From contig JALHRF010000012.1 of NCBI GenBank assembly GCA_022841545.1, positions 1-48,961 of the forward strand: DNA of 48,961 bases, written 5' to 3'. Below, piece after piece: positions 40,837 through 47,038 of the stretch (its first letter is position 1; each line of letters starts with the position of its first letter). The notes below the pieces were generated by a model. That model worked only from the letters and a program-made list of their open reading frames with translations, ran no database searches and was not told where the DNA came from. The stretch is from Bauldia sp. Lineage in GTDB: Bacteria > Pseudomonadota > Alphaproteobacteria > Rhizobiales > Kaistiaceae. A program made the position numbers and the translations under genes.

Positions 40837-42614
40837 CGAAGCCCGCCACAAGTCCTGCTTTCAAGACCAGACTGCGGCGACCCCTGCACGTCATTGGGGC
40901 GGGGCTGGCAGCGGTTCTAGCCGAAAACCTGGAAGCTAAATATATCCTTGGATCCTAAGCGTAAATCTTGATCGACGAGAAGTGAAGAGCGGTTCTCATC
41001 GGCGAATAAATGGAAAGATATCGGCCCTTTCTCCCTAGTAGCGGTGTTACCGACGCTGGGCCCTTCGGTTTGAGAAAATCCGGGGAGAAATTAATGGGAT
41101 ACATGCTATCAATTGAATAGAACGGTTCATCGCTTACAGACACGAATATATGTCTCGCCCTCTCCTGAAGTCCGTCCAGTCGATTCTTGATCACCAAGTA
41201 CTGTAATGCATAAGACTGTTCCAAGTCGATCGTAATGCTTTGGTCTGCTGCTATCGCTGTATGAAAAAAGAATTTCGGCTGTTCTTCAACCTTACCTTCC
41301 GAGGGGTAATGTCCATGTCCTTGGCTTAGTCGAAATGTCTTGCCTTTCGCAAGGTCGACCCTCGTCTCCAACTCTGAAGATTTCGGCGTCGACGCCGAGC
41401 CGGATTCGATCCGTAACGAGTTGTAGAGATTGCGTATCGCCAGCTGGTTGATTGTATTTGTGTCTACGACCTCGGCGCGCAAAGCCGACCGCTCCCAATC
41501 AGCAAAATCCAAGTTGTCGCGCAAGACTTTAAGTTGGGACTCAATGCTCCTCTGTTTCGTCAACAGCCACTTCTCATTAAGATGGATGGGTGGATTCGCG
41601 CGAATATTCCAACTTATATCCAGCGGATGTGGAAGTTGCGGCTCAAAAAATGAGCCTTCCTCTCCCGCGAATCGATCGCGGCGTAAATACGTCAACTCGA
41701 TTATATTGGGGACGTTCATCCCGGTTGCGTTATCGAGATAGTCTCCACAGCAGTTGTTCGGATGCGCATGTACGCAAATATGCGTTGCCGAAAGTTTCTG
41801 AAGTAGTGGACCGACTTCCTTGTCCAAGAGATTTGGCTGCCTGAATGCGCCGAGCCCGTGCAGTTCGATCACGATAATACGAAAACGATCAATGACGGAG
41901 TCTTTTGCGGATAGAAGATTGCGATACTCCGCGCCCTCGATATCCATTTGGAGAATCAGATCGTCACGCGGGTCTGGAGAATACTGAGCGACCCAGTCTT
42001 CAAGAGAAATACTATTCTCAGCGCCGTCGACATCCAGCCACTTCTTTTGGAATGTCTGCATATTTGCAATGAGTGGTGTCTCGAAATTGTCAAGGTCACT
42101 GGAGTAATCGCACATATGGCATTTAACCCCAAACTGCTTAGTAAGTTCGTCCTCGAAGTGTTTGAAGTTATTGACTCCGGGTGAGAAACACGCGTCGATT
42201 CCGTCGAAATCGTCGGGAATCAAATATGCTCCATCATGTTCACCGCCGATCCGGATGAGTTGGACCGGACTAGCTTTGGGCATCATCGATTTCAGTAGAT
42301 CTGTCGAAGAATGGACGCCCATACTAAGCCTACACCTCTCGCTCTGGCGTTTGTCGTAGGGATTGGTCGCCGAAAAACGTTCGTTGAGCAGCCCTTTTGC
42401 CGCAAGTGTGGCCCTAAGGTATGGGAATTGGCAAGGCCGAACCTGACCAATGGGTCGCCGGCTGCCCTGGAGGTCCACAACATGGCCGAGAGGCGGGCCA
42501 GACGTTGGGACTCGTGGAGCGAGTTTGACATTGGAGTCCCAGTTGGTCTCGGGCAGTTCTCAAATGTCAGATTCAGAAGCTCCAGTAGAAGCATCTAGTT
42601 GCTAGCGGTGGGCC
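40837..42614. other. Low-GC islet, probably acquired
   Basis: Base composition drops from the surrounding GC-rich level to roughly 45-50% by eye between about 40900 and 42600. The islet carries one minus-strand methyltransferase gene (40955-42322) plus about 280 bp of non-coding sequence upstream of it. It is bracketed by the end of the transpeptidase gene and a diverged copy of that end. No integrase, transposase or clear target duplication was found. Acquisition by transfer is inferred from composition and the flanking repeat. Confidence 0.65.
40955..42322 (-). CDS. FkbM-type methyltransferase with C-terminal discoidin-like domain
   Basis: A 455-residue protein in the low-GC islet. Residues 18-190 fit FkbM-type SAM-dependent methyltransferases: VQLIRIGGEHDGAYLIPDDF, ACFSPGVNNFKHFEDEL, LILQMDIEGAEYRNLL (the family's D-x-E-G-A-E at 127-132) and RIIVIELHGL. 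A middle region with charged helices follows (about 240-300). Residues 320-455 resemble an F5/8 type C (discoidin) sugar-binding fold: AADQSITIDLEQSYALQYLVIKN and HIFVSVSDEPFYSIDS. That suggests methylation of a surface glycan, though the acceptor is unknown. The ATG at 42322 removes 52 dissimilar residues. Codon use is less GC-biased than in its neighbours, consistent with transfer. Confidence 0.72.
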   Translation of the reverse strand: MGVHSSTDLLKSMMPKASPVQLIRIGGEHDGAYLIPDDFDGIDACFSPGVNNFKHFEDELTKQFGVKCHMCDYSSDLDNFETPLIANMQTFQKKWLDVDGAENSISLEDWVAQYSPDPRDDLILQMDIEGAEYRNLLSAKDSVIDRFRIIVIELHGLGAFRQPNLLDKEVGPLLQKLSATHICVHAHPNNCCGDYLDNATGMNVPNIIELTYLRRDRFAGEEGSFFEPQLPHPLDISWNIRANPPIHLNEKWLLTKQRSIESQLKVLRDNLDFADWERSALRAEVVDTNTINQLAIRNLYNSLRIESGSASTPKSSELETRVDLAKGKTFRLSQGHGHYPSEGKVEEQPKFFFHTAIAADQSITIDLEQSYALQYLVIKNRLDGLQERARHIFVSVSDEPFYSIDSMYPINFSPDFLKPKGPASVTPLLGRKGRYLSIYSPMRTALHFSSIKIYA

Positions 42615-43365: not shown

Positions 43366-43548
43366 AGCGGGCTCCCGGACCAGTGAATGGCGCGAGCGAC
43401 AGGGTCATCGTCACGCAGGGCCGGCTCCATCTAGCCGGTCCGCACCGACACGGATGTGTCCCAGTTCACTGACGCGCCGGCGCCGGCAAGCTCATCACTT
43501 GCGGAACAAGGGCCAGCCGGCCCCCCCGCGGATCGGAGGAGTGTCGTC

Positions 43549-45105
43549 ATGTCGTCGGAAGCGCTGCAGCGTCTCAGACAGGCCACCCATCGCCGCGAGG
43601 AGTTGCGCCGCGAATGGGATCAGGCCCGCAATCGCGATCTGCTCGGCCTCCTGCTCCTGACGCTGCCGCCGCTGTTCGGCGCCGAGCGCGGGGGTCTCTT
43701 TGTGCTCGACCCGACGAACCAAAGACTCTGGCTCGAGGCTGGCACCGGCGTGGCGGAGCGTCGGATCGTCGTCGATGTCGACGGCTCGCTGGTCGGCGAG
43801 GCGCTCCGCGAAGGGTCGACGATCGCGCGCGACGGGCTGGAAAGCGCCCCGGGCCAGCACCGATCGGTGGCCGCCGTCACCGGTTTTTCCGTGCGCAACG
43901 CCCTCACCGCACCGGTGTTCGACGTGACGACCGGACAGGCCATCGGCGCCGTCCAGGTGCTCAACAAGGCAGGCGACGCGCCATGGAGCGAGGCGGAGAA
44001 GCTTCGGCTTCGCGACATCGCGCATGTGATCGGCCCGACCGTCAGCCTGATGCATGCGGGGCAGCACCTCCTCACCGCCGCGCGTACGCTCGACGATGAG
44101 ATCCGCAGCCTCGACCGCCAGGAAAGCGCCATCCGCGGCGGGCGGATGCTGCGCACCTTCGATCCGGTGGAGCCGCTCGACGAGCACGGGTTCCTGCATC
44201 ACCGCGTCAACGGCAAGCTCTACCCGCCCTTCATCGACCGGACCGCGATCGACGCGCTCAGGGAAACCTGGGACACCGACGCCGACGATGTCTTCATCGC
44301 CACCCACCAGAAGGTCGGGACCCACCTTGCCAAGAAGTTCGCCGTGGAACTCGTTCGCCAGGCGCTCGACCTGCCGGCCGGCAACGCCTACGAGACCGGC
44401 GACATCGGGCACGACACCGTGCCGTGGCCCGAGGTCATGTACTCGCAGCACGGCCGCGCCTACTGGGAGCGCCATGTCGAGCGGATCAAGGGCTATCCGC
44501 GGATCTGGTACATCCACTGCGCCTACGAGGACCTGCCGGTGCGCCGCATCCATCCCGACACGCGGTTCCTCGTGGTGTTCCGCGATCCGCGCGCGGTCGC
44601 GGTGTCGCAATACTTCTTCTGGAAGAAGCATCCCCTCCTCAAGGTCGACCCGCAGCTCGACCTCGACAGCTTCGTCGAGCGCTTCGTCGACGGCGACCTC
44701 TATTTCGGCGACTACCACCGCCACGTCACCGGCTGGCTGCAGCGCTCCGACCAGCGCATCGCGCCCGACCGGCTGATGGCGCTGCGCTACGAGGATCTGG
44801 TCGAGCGGAAGGAGGATTGCGCGGTCGAGATCAACAGCTTCCTGGGGCAATCCCGCACGCTCTCGCCCGAGCAGTTGCGGGCCGTGGTCGACAGCACCGA
44901 TTTCGACGCCATGAAAACGGAACTCACCGAGAATCCGCAGAGCTTCCACCTCGACCCGAAGGTCTATTTCCGCGCCGGCAAGACGCGGGACTGGGAACAG
45001 CATCTGTCGCCGCTGGCGGTCGAGGCGATCGACCAGAAGACGCGGGCGCTGTGGGGCGGAAGCCTGGACACCCCGCCGCTCGACGGTGCGCGGACGCTCG
45101 CCTGA
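43549..45105 (+). CDS. GAF-domain/sulfotransferase fusion protein
   Basis: A 518-residue cytosolic protein joining two domains rarely seen together. Residues about 30-170 form a GAF sensor domain (GGLFVLDPTNQRLWLEAGTGV, GSLVGEALREGSTI, LTAPVFDVTTGQAIGAVQVLNK). Residues about 230-510 form a PAPS-dependent sulfotransferase domain: the 5'-phosphosulfate loop IATHQKVGTHLAKKF with K245, a catalytic-base candidate H323 in PRIWYIH, the 3'-phosphate loop VVFRDPRAVAVSQYF with R345 and S353, LRYEDLV, and FRAGKTRDWEQHL near 484-496. The ATG at 43549 has a strong GGAGGAG seven bases upstream; a GTG at 43456 is in frame but weaker. Donor-binding motifs look intact, so activity is likely; the acceptor and the GAF ligand are unknown. 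Confidence 0.85.
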   Translation: MSSEALQRLRQATHRREELRREWDQARNRDLLGLLLLTLPPLFGAERGGLFVLDPTNQRLWLEAGTGVAERRIVVDVDGSLVGEALREGSTIARDGLESAPGQHRSVAAVTGFSVRNALTAPVFDVTTGQAIGAVQVLNKAGDAPWSEAEKLRLRDIAHVIGPTVSLMHAGQHLLTAARTLDDEIRSLDRQESAIRGGRMLRTFDPVEPLDEHGFLHHRVNGKLYPPFIDRTAIDALRETWDTDADDVFIATHQKVGTHLAKKFAVELVRQALDLPAGNAYETGDIGHDTVPWPEVMYSQHGRAYWERHVERIKGYPRIWYIHCAYEDLPVRRIHPDTRFLVVFRDPRAVAVSQYFFWKKHPLLKVDPQLDLDSFVERFVDGDLYFGDYHRHVTGWLQRSDQRIAPDRLMALRYEDLVERKEDCAVEINSFLGQSRTLSPEQLRAVVDSTDFDAMKTELTENPQSFHLDPKVYFRAGKTRDWEQHLSPLAVEAIDQKTRALWGGSLDTPPLDGARTLA

Positions 45106-45138: not shown

Positions 45139-46053
45139 TTAGACGCCTTCGATCTCGCCCGGCGCGAACACCGTCAAAGCGCCCTTGAGCACGGAGAATT
45201 CCGCCGGGGTCTTCGTCGTGACCTCGCCGTCGGTGTTCACCGGCATCGGTTCCGGCGTCTCGATCCGGACCGTCGCGCCGCGGAAGTAGGCGACGTCATC
45301 GAGTTCGACCAGCGTGCCGTCGCGGAGCCGTGGGGCGAGGGCAATCAGCTCGGGGACAGAGGCCGTTTCGATCGCGTAGACGTCGAGTACGCCGTCGTCG
45401 ATGGCCGCCTCGGGGCTGACCGTCAGGCCGCCGCCGAAGTGGATGCCGTTGCCGATCGCGATCTGGTAGGCGCGCACCGACTCCGACCGTTCGCCGCAGG
45501 TGATCCGCGCCTGGAAGGGCTCGGCTTCGTTGAGCGCGCTCGCCGCGGCGACGACATAGCTGAAGATGCCCCACTGGCGCTTGAGTTCCTCGTCCTGCTT
45601 CTCGGCGATGTTCACCGAGAGGCCGATGCTGGCGACATTGAGGAAGTATGCGTCGTTGACCGTGCCGACGTCGATCCGGCGGGTCGCGCCATCGACGATC
45701 ACCCCGGCGGCGGCGACCGGATCGACCGGGATGCCGAGGGTGAGCGCAAGGTCGTTGGCGGTGCCGAAGGGCAGGATGCCGACCGGCTTTCCCGCCTCGA
45801 TCAGCGCCGGGATGGCCCCGTTCACCGTGCCGTCGCCACCGGCCACGACGATCGCGTCGACGCTGCCGGCGCATTCCCGAATGACGTTCGCGAGGGAGTC
45901 GCCGTCGGCGCTCTGGCGGATATCGAGATCGAAGCCGCTCCCCGCGAGGCAGGCGACGGCGCCCCCCAGCGACGCCTTGGCACGGGACGCGTGGAGATTG
46001 ACGACGAGGAGGAGCCGCGGCGGCCGCCGCCCGGCGTCACGTGGCTGCTGCAT
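45139..46053 (-). CDS. Diacylglycerol-kinase-family lipid kinase (YegS-like)
   Basis: A lipid or sphingoid kinase of the DAGK catalytic family, about 304 residues. LLLVVNLHASRAKAS opens the domain, AIVVAGGDGTVNGAIPAL is the nucleotide-binding glycine motif, and GILPFGTANDLALTLGIP is the second conserved block. IGNGIHFGGGLTVSPEAAIDDGVLDV is the C-terminal metal/lipid region and PVNTDGEV carries the late conserved DGE. Its substrate is not fixed by sequence. The ATG at 46053 overlaps the upstream membrane protein gene by 17 bp; a longer in-frame start at 46095 would overlap by 59 bp. It converges on the GAF-sulfotransferase gene across 33 bp. Confidence 0.88.
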   Translation of the reverse strand: MQQPRDAGRRPPRLLLVVNLHASRAKASLGGAVACLAGSGFDLDIRQSADGDSLANVIRECAGSVDAIVVAGGDGTVNGAIPALIEAGKPVGILPFGTANDLALTLGIPVDPVAAAGVIVDGATRRIDVGTVNDAYFLNVASIGLSVNIAEKQDEELKRQWGIFSYVVAAASALNEAEPFQARITCGERSESVRAYQIAIGNGIHFGGGLTVSPEAAIDDGVLDVYAIETASVPELIALAPRLRDGTLVELDDVAYFRGATVRIETPEPMPVNTDGEVTTKTPAEFSVLKGALTVFAPGEIEGV

Positions 46054-47038
46054 GCTTGCCGACCTCCGCCCGGAACTCGCGCTCGTCGCGGGCAAGCGCT
46101 GCCGCGAGGCCGGCGACCCCTTGCCTCAGGTTGCCGACCGACCGCAGGACGGCGTCGCGGGTCGCCGAGGCATTGTCGGCGCCGGTCCTGCCCCGCTGCT
46201 CGATATATTCGATCAGAGCAAGCGCGTTCGCGAGCAGGAGATCGTTGACGCGATAGCAGTCCATCACCCTCAGCGCATTGCCGGGACGCCAGACGGCGCC
46301 GAGCACGGCGTGGATGGAGTGGTAGATGATCTCGGCCGAAAAGCCGGAGACGCGGGCGAACCCGGAGAGACGGACGACGAGGCCGTTCGCCTCGCCGAGC
46401 GCCGCCTCCGGCGCGCCGGCGGCATGGCTGCGCTGGCGTAACCCCGCGAGCAGGCTCTCCAGCTCGCCGGACTTCACGGCGAGCGAGCCGAGCTCGAGTT
46501 GCCAAGCGTAGTAGGCGTCGAGAATGGGCGTGACCTCCGCGAGCGTCAATGGAGGCGCGCTGCCCCACGGCATGGAAACCGAGGACCCGGTCGGCGCGGG
46601 ATCTGTGGAGCGGGAAACCTCGCGGAGCGCGTCGAGGAGCGGCTTCATCATGTGGACCATGGTCTTGATGCATGCGCCGATGCCGGCGAGAAGCACGATA
46701 TTGGCGACGAACTGGTCGCGGAGGGTTTCTTCGATCGCGGCGATCTCGGTCCGCCTCGCCGCCTCGGCGCGGCGGCTTTCGTCCTCCGCCTCGCGACGCC
46801 GCCGCTGCTGCCGGATACGAGCGAGGATCAGGGTCGACAGGATCGTGGTGAAGAACAGGATGACGGCATATTCGAAGATCGCGCCGACCAGGCCGAGCGT
46901 CACCTCGCCTCCCGGCCGGAGCTCGTCCATCCAGAACGGAAACGCATACCAGAGGGCGAATGCGCCTATCGCAGCAAGAAGCGCGACGGTTGCGCCGAGC
47001 AGCGCGTAGTAGAACCAGCCTCCACCGGCGGCCCGCAC
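46037..47038 (-). CDS. Unrecognised membrane protein between secA and the DAGK-like gene
   Basis: A 333-residue protein that I do not recognise. It has two N-terminal membrane helices (about residues 9-34 and 47-74), a highly charged helix (75-105, RIRQQRRRREAEDESRRAEAARR) and a third hydrophobic stretch (about 110-126). The C-terminal two thirds is helical and soluble (YYAWQLELGSLAVKSGELESLL; RVNDLLLANALALIEYIEQRG). The arrangement resembles membrane-anchored signalling or scaffold proteins, but no known catalytic motif was seen. Start is GTG at 47038, 7 bp after the secA stop; its end overlaps the DAGK-like gene, so the three may be cotranscribed. Confidence 0.6.
   Translation of the reverse strand: MRAAGGGWFYYALLGATVALLAAIGAFALWYAFPFWMDELRPGGEVTLGLVGAIFEYAVILFFTTILSTLILARIRQQRRRREAEDESRRAEAARRTEIAAIEETLRDQFVANIVLLAGIGACIKTMVHMMKPLLDALREVSRSTDPAPTGSSVSMPWGSAPPLTLAEVTPILDAYYAWQLELGSLAVKSGELESLLAGLRQRSHAAGAPEAALGEANGLVVRLSGFARVSGFSAEIIYHSIHAVLGAVWRPGNALRVMDCYRVNDLLLANALALIEYIEQRGRTGADNASATRDAVLRSVGNLRQGVAGLAAALARDEREFRAEVGKHAAAT

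Follow-up and report, generated by a model that had tools for sequence, protein, structure and literature searches.

The usual view is that bacterial sulfotransferases are regulated through gene expression and the supply of PAPS. In the window, which here means the whole analysed stretch of 48,961 nucleotides from a Bauldia sp. genome, a GAF domain and a sulfotransferase domain are encoded by a single reading frame, raising the question whether this enzyme is governed by a sensor domain on its own polypeptide chain. The following features were assigned.

43549..45105, plus strand: GAF-sulfotransferase fusion gene (P0001), 518 aa (open reading frame, Pfam, 55% identical full-length relative)
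43535..43541, plus strand: ribosome-binding site GGAGGAG, read from the sequence, 7 nt before the ATG at 43549
43636..44040, plus strand: GAF domain, residues 30-164 (Pfam, AlphaFold2, VIA-align)
43990..44136, plus strand: long connecting helix, residues 148-196, running from the last GAF helix into the linker (both AlphaFold2 models)
44284..45045, plus strand: sulfotransferase domain, residues 246-499 (Pfam Sulfotransfer_1, Foldseek, invariant residues)

The open reading frame is a real gene. Its 518 codons coincide exactly with the coordinates given by an earlier sequence-only reading, which had also cited a strong ribosome-binding site and a normal composition; both were confirmed, by the GGAGGAG motif and by a host-like GC3 of 0.888 compared with 0.85-0.93 in most neighbours. 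No sigma-70 promoter-like site was found near the gene, which says little. A divergent composition was obtained for a gene at 40955-42478 of the window (minus strand), encoding an FkbM-type methyltransferase whose C-terminal part weakly matches a galactose-binding-like domain: its GC content of 49.5% and GC3 of 55% (0.55), against 85-93% GC3 in other nearby genes, make it look recently acquired and foreign, which the fusion gene does not.

Pfam, AlphaFold2 and Foldseek were concordant on both domains. Two AlphaFold2 models were generated, the first from an alignment dominated by GAF relatives (A3), the second from a sulfotransferase-rich alignment (A4). The pTM values were 0.43 and 0.57, interdomain placement being without confident prediction, and the linker (residues 191-227) had a pLDDT below 50 and an unreliable position.

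Residues 246-499 matched Sulfotransfer_1 with an E-value of 1.8e-36 and 126.3 bits (curated cut-off 22), and pLDDT in the A4 model was mostly 74-93 with some weaker stretches. Foldseek retrieved SULT2A1 with the sulfotransferase half (E 1.1e-13, TM(target) 0.74) and SULTs generally at about 1e-13 and TM(target) 0.7-0.8; the VIA-align list was filled by GAF matches and held no sulfotransferase structures, so that the fold rests on Foldseek. The PAPS-binding and catalytic residues K255, H323, R345, S353, R475 and G477 are present and match those of SULTs; among 12 aligned sulfotransferases the histidine, both arginines, the serine and the glycine were invariant, and the lysine was replaced by arginine in several others. 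The sequence-only reading had rightly noted H323, R345, S353 and FRAGKTRDW (474-482) but misnumbered the lysine of the 5'-phosphosulfate loop as K245; it is K255, within THQKVGT (252-258). By profile, residues and predicted fold, the domain is a PAPS-type sulfotransferase.

With the cytosolic SULT2A1/SULT1 type the fusion protein shares the common fold, the 5'-phosphosulfate loop with K255, H323, R345/S353 and R475/G477, but it is only about 20-25% identical and carries a GAF domain. In addition, the SULT dimer motif KxxxTVxxxE, located after RKGxxGDW, is not kept (EQHLSPLAVE, residues 483-492, stands instead), and the first lysine of RKGxxGDWK is absent. TPR-sulfotransferase fusions of Proteobacteria, listed in a 2005 survey (PMC554113), likewise join Sulfotransfer_1 to another module, although TPR is a protein-interaction repeat whereas GAF is a ligand-binding sensor domain. 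The nearest unfused relatives of the sulfotransferase half were found at E of about 1e-15, partly in Pseudomonadota families that also have related GAF modules (f240, f235). Two of the nearest unfused sulfotransferases in other families lie in possible natural-product settings, one near an ABC transporter, a thioesterase and an outer-membrane efflux gene (L080:3787-9297) and the other near an acyl-CoA dehydrogenase and a HAD hydrolase (L082:2655-6395).

One full-length relative was detected, in a Devosia equisanguinis MAG (L013), with both Pfam domains above cut-off; the concern that the fusion might be absent in all relatives is thereby removed. The two proteins share 279 of 506 residues (55%) without a gap and with linkers of equal length. 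Identity amounts to 44% in the GAF core, the least conserved part, 56% in helix residues 165-200 and 62% in the sulfotransferase domain. Over the 506 codons, the differences number 163 at first, 148 at second and 339 at third positions, so that 67% of third positions but only about 31% of the first two have changed; dS is saturated between the two, and no dN/dS ratio is given. This concentration at third positions shows purifying selection at the protein level, and the fusion, shared without a gap by the Devosia relative, is not an accident. The Devosia gene lies beside transposase genes and adjoins a nitric-oxide synthase (NOS) gene fused to cyclic-nucleotide-binding domains. The product of the latter (L013:2440-5592, minus strand, 1051 aa) is an unusual bacterial NOS, in which the nitric-oxide-synthase oxygenase domain is accompanied by two cyclic-nucleotide-binding domains, a BFD-like [2Fe-2S] domain and a weak match to an FAD-binding domain. 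No NOS turned up in either the window genome or those of its congeners, and a link to nitric oxide was rejected on this ground.

Relatives were sought by a pattern scan with exact short peptides in one genome per species (GTDB 220), by which distant fusions could be missed, and two members only were obtained, from the window genome and the Devosia MAG. No further fusion was found in overlapping samples of 100 relatives and of genomes from the order (397), the class (385) and the phylum (398), nor in likewise overlapping samples of 19 genomes of the Devosia MAG's genus and 136 of its family; it is thus absent from more than 1,000 other sampled genomes. The full-length protein had no match in the plasmid collection, where the sulfotransferase domain alone gave only a 27% partial match, and no match was present in viral contigs, PHROGs or PADLOC; a plasmid, viral or defence origin was rejected on these searches. 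The fusion may possibly have arisen in one of the Pseudomonadota lineages that carry related GAF modules and nearest unfused sulfotransferases, and been transferred afterwards.

In the window the gene order is ykuD - fkbM - maiA - fusion - yegS - a gene without assignment - secA, while at the same locus two congeners lack the fusion and have ykuD - an anion-permease-like gene - yegS - secA. This marks the fusion as an accessory gene, placed in a variable interval that conserved genes bound on either side, an arrangement that also speaks against a chimeric contig. The gene without assignment (46037-47038, minus strand, 333 aa) has no Pfam match, overlaps the start of yegS and did not turn up in the corresponding yegS-secA region when the congeners G002 and G003 were compared. 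The direct neighbours of the fusion encode a maleylacetoacetate isomerase (NCBIfam), previously taken for a GST-like enzyme, and a YegS-type lipid kinase, recognized as such before. As both are on the minus strand, the fusion does not form an operon with them. The suggestion that these neighbours hint at a sulfated lipid did not hold: they are encoded on the opposite strand, their known functions are unrelated, and different genes surround the Devosia copy. A function deduced from operon or neighbourhood was rejected accordingly.

The PAPS synthesis genes, whose presence had been proposed as a check (cysDNC), were found as cysD and a cysN-cysC fusion (cysNC), so PAPS can be made in the window genome. 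Given these genes and twelve Sulfotransfer_1 matches in the same genome, the organism probably carries out sulfation routinely. Two tandem pairs of sulfotransferase genes also occur there (G000 contigs C39 and C101; L084, L085).

The GAF domain was matched by Pfam at residues 32-162 (E 1.1e-7, 32.9 bits, cut-off 22.4), and residues 31-170 had pLDDT values of mostly 78-95 in the A3 model. A check whether this part is predicted to fold as a GAF domain came out positive, the model matching PDE10A GAF-B best (2zmf; Z 20.2 by VIA-align, with an rmsd of 2.2 across 154 residues). The GAF family profile retrieved from PDB sequences mainly PDE2, CyaB2, PDE5, PDE6, PDE10, Lcd1 and the HD-GYP protein 4mcw. 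Among the closest solved GAFs (PDE10A GAF-B, CyaB2, PDE2A, Lcd1 and 4mcw), 4mcw has the same order of GAF, helix and enzyme, but the fusion differs from all of them in altered NKFDE and contact residues and in an unrelated downstream enzyme. A profile of the two fusions detected GAF modules with the same N-terminal helix in other Pseudomonadota families (E 1e-22 to 1e-34); their partners there are sigma54 activator domains or a hydrophobic C-terminal helix. These GAF-sigma54 activators and GAF-membrane proteins of about 230 aa (L016-L044) share the module including the N-terminal helix and W23 at 27-32% identity; their outputs are a sigma54-interaction AAA+ domain with HTH_8 or the hydrophobic helix, and they keep the cNMP-type pocket residues and NKF-D, where the fusions are changed. 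The module belongs to the clade of cyclic-nucleotide PDEs and cyclases and resembles that of GAF-sigma54 activators.

The pocket was compared between 29 sister GAF modules and the two fusions. The sister modules hardly vary in columns 49 (S), 115 (T), 146 (F) and 150 (D), and all except two of them have D or E in column 108. Both fusions carry S49G, T115V and F146W, and D108 is changed to A or S. The NKFDE motif reads N139 K140 W146 E150 K151 in the window protein and N, R, W, D, A in the Devosia protein; in PDE2 GAF-B, single alanine changes in this motif abolish cGMP binding (PMC11977230). The cAMP contacts of CyaB2 include R291, T293, D356 and N359 (PMC4411481), and here R47 is kept, while T293, D356 and N359 correspond to G49, A108 and T111. 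Pocket-edge residues R47, G65, T66, H104, N117 and N139 are retained by both fusions. Because conserved pocket positions are changed in both, a canonical cAMP/cGMP site is doubtful. The occurrence of the same changes in two proteins of 55% identity suggests a retuned pocket more than random decay, two sequences being no proof; equally, the lost residues may signify that the pocket no longer binds a ligand.

Taken together, we favour, with a probability of roughly 55%, a PAPS-dependent sulfotransferase, probably dimeric, in which an N-terminal GAF domain with an altered pocket controls activity in cis; regulation, dimerisation and the changed ligand are what we infer. From the earlier proposal of a regulated sulfotransferase, the fusion, both predicted folds, its conservation and the PAPS genes stand, and the word regulated belongs to these inferred parts. 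The GAF domain, derived from the clade of cyclic-nucleotide PDE, adenylate cyclase and GAF-sigma54 activator GAFs, would probably answer to a ligand that is neither cAMP nor cGMP, the long helix 148-196 would relay the binding, and the sulfotransferase domain would transfer sulfate to an acceptor from the PAPS that CysD and CysNC make. A regulatory role agrees with the use of the same module as input domain of sigma54 activators elsewhere; the lower conservation of the GAF core (44% versus 62%), the lost pocket residues, the small number of members (two) and the uncertain interdomain arrangement were counted against the favoured reading.

This low conservation, together with the change in both fusions of pocket residues nearly invariant in sister GAFs and the missing KxxxTVxxxE, in whose place another dimer interface may serve, would also fit a ligand-free dimerisation scaffold in which GAF and long helix hold two sulfotransferase domains without sensing. 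We regard this as rather unlikely, as the six pocket-edge residues kept in both proteins are more than a bare scaffold needs. A normal cyclic-nucleotide receptor gating the enzyme by cAMP or cGMP could be read from the PDE10A GAF-B match, the chiefly cyclic-nucleotide GAFs retrieved by the profile, the retained R47, T111, N139 and K140 of the window protein and the Devosia copy beside an NOS with cyclic-nucleotide-binding domains. However, the window genome has no NOS, and G49 and A108 at two CyaB2 contacts and the changed NKFDE motif in both fusions make such gating improbable. That the fusion is decaying or accidental, without maintained function, is very improbable: its distribution is rare and patchy and congeners lack it, but a gap-free 55% identity, changes concentrated at third positions, intact catalytic residues and a good ribosome-binding site speak against this.

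The sequence-only reading considered the fusion possibly undescribed, and no description of a GAF domain joined to a sulfotransferase was found in the open-licence literature, although databases may well contain proteins of the same architecture. It appears to combine known domains in a new way that, within the literature searched, is undescribed. Since bacteria commonly fuse GAF domains to new outputs, the combination is unsurprising in kind. A sensor fused to the enzyme would mean direct control of sulfation and would help to trace the signal that calls for it. Somewhat below even odds, and thus tentatively, we propose a sulfotransferase family switched by a GAF-bound small molecule other than cAMP or cGMP; if true, this would be a first instance of a sensor domain gating sulfation in cis.
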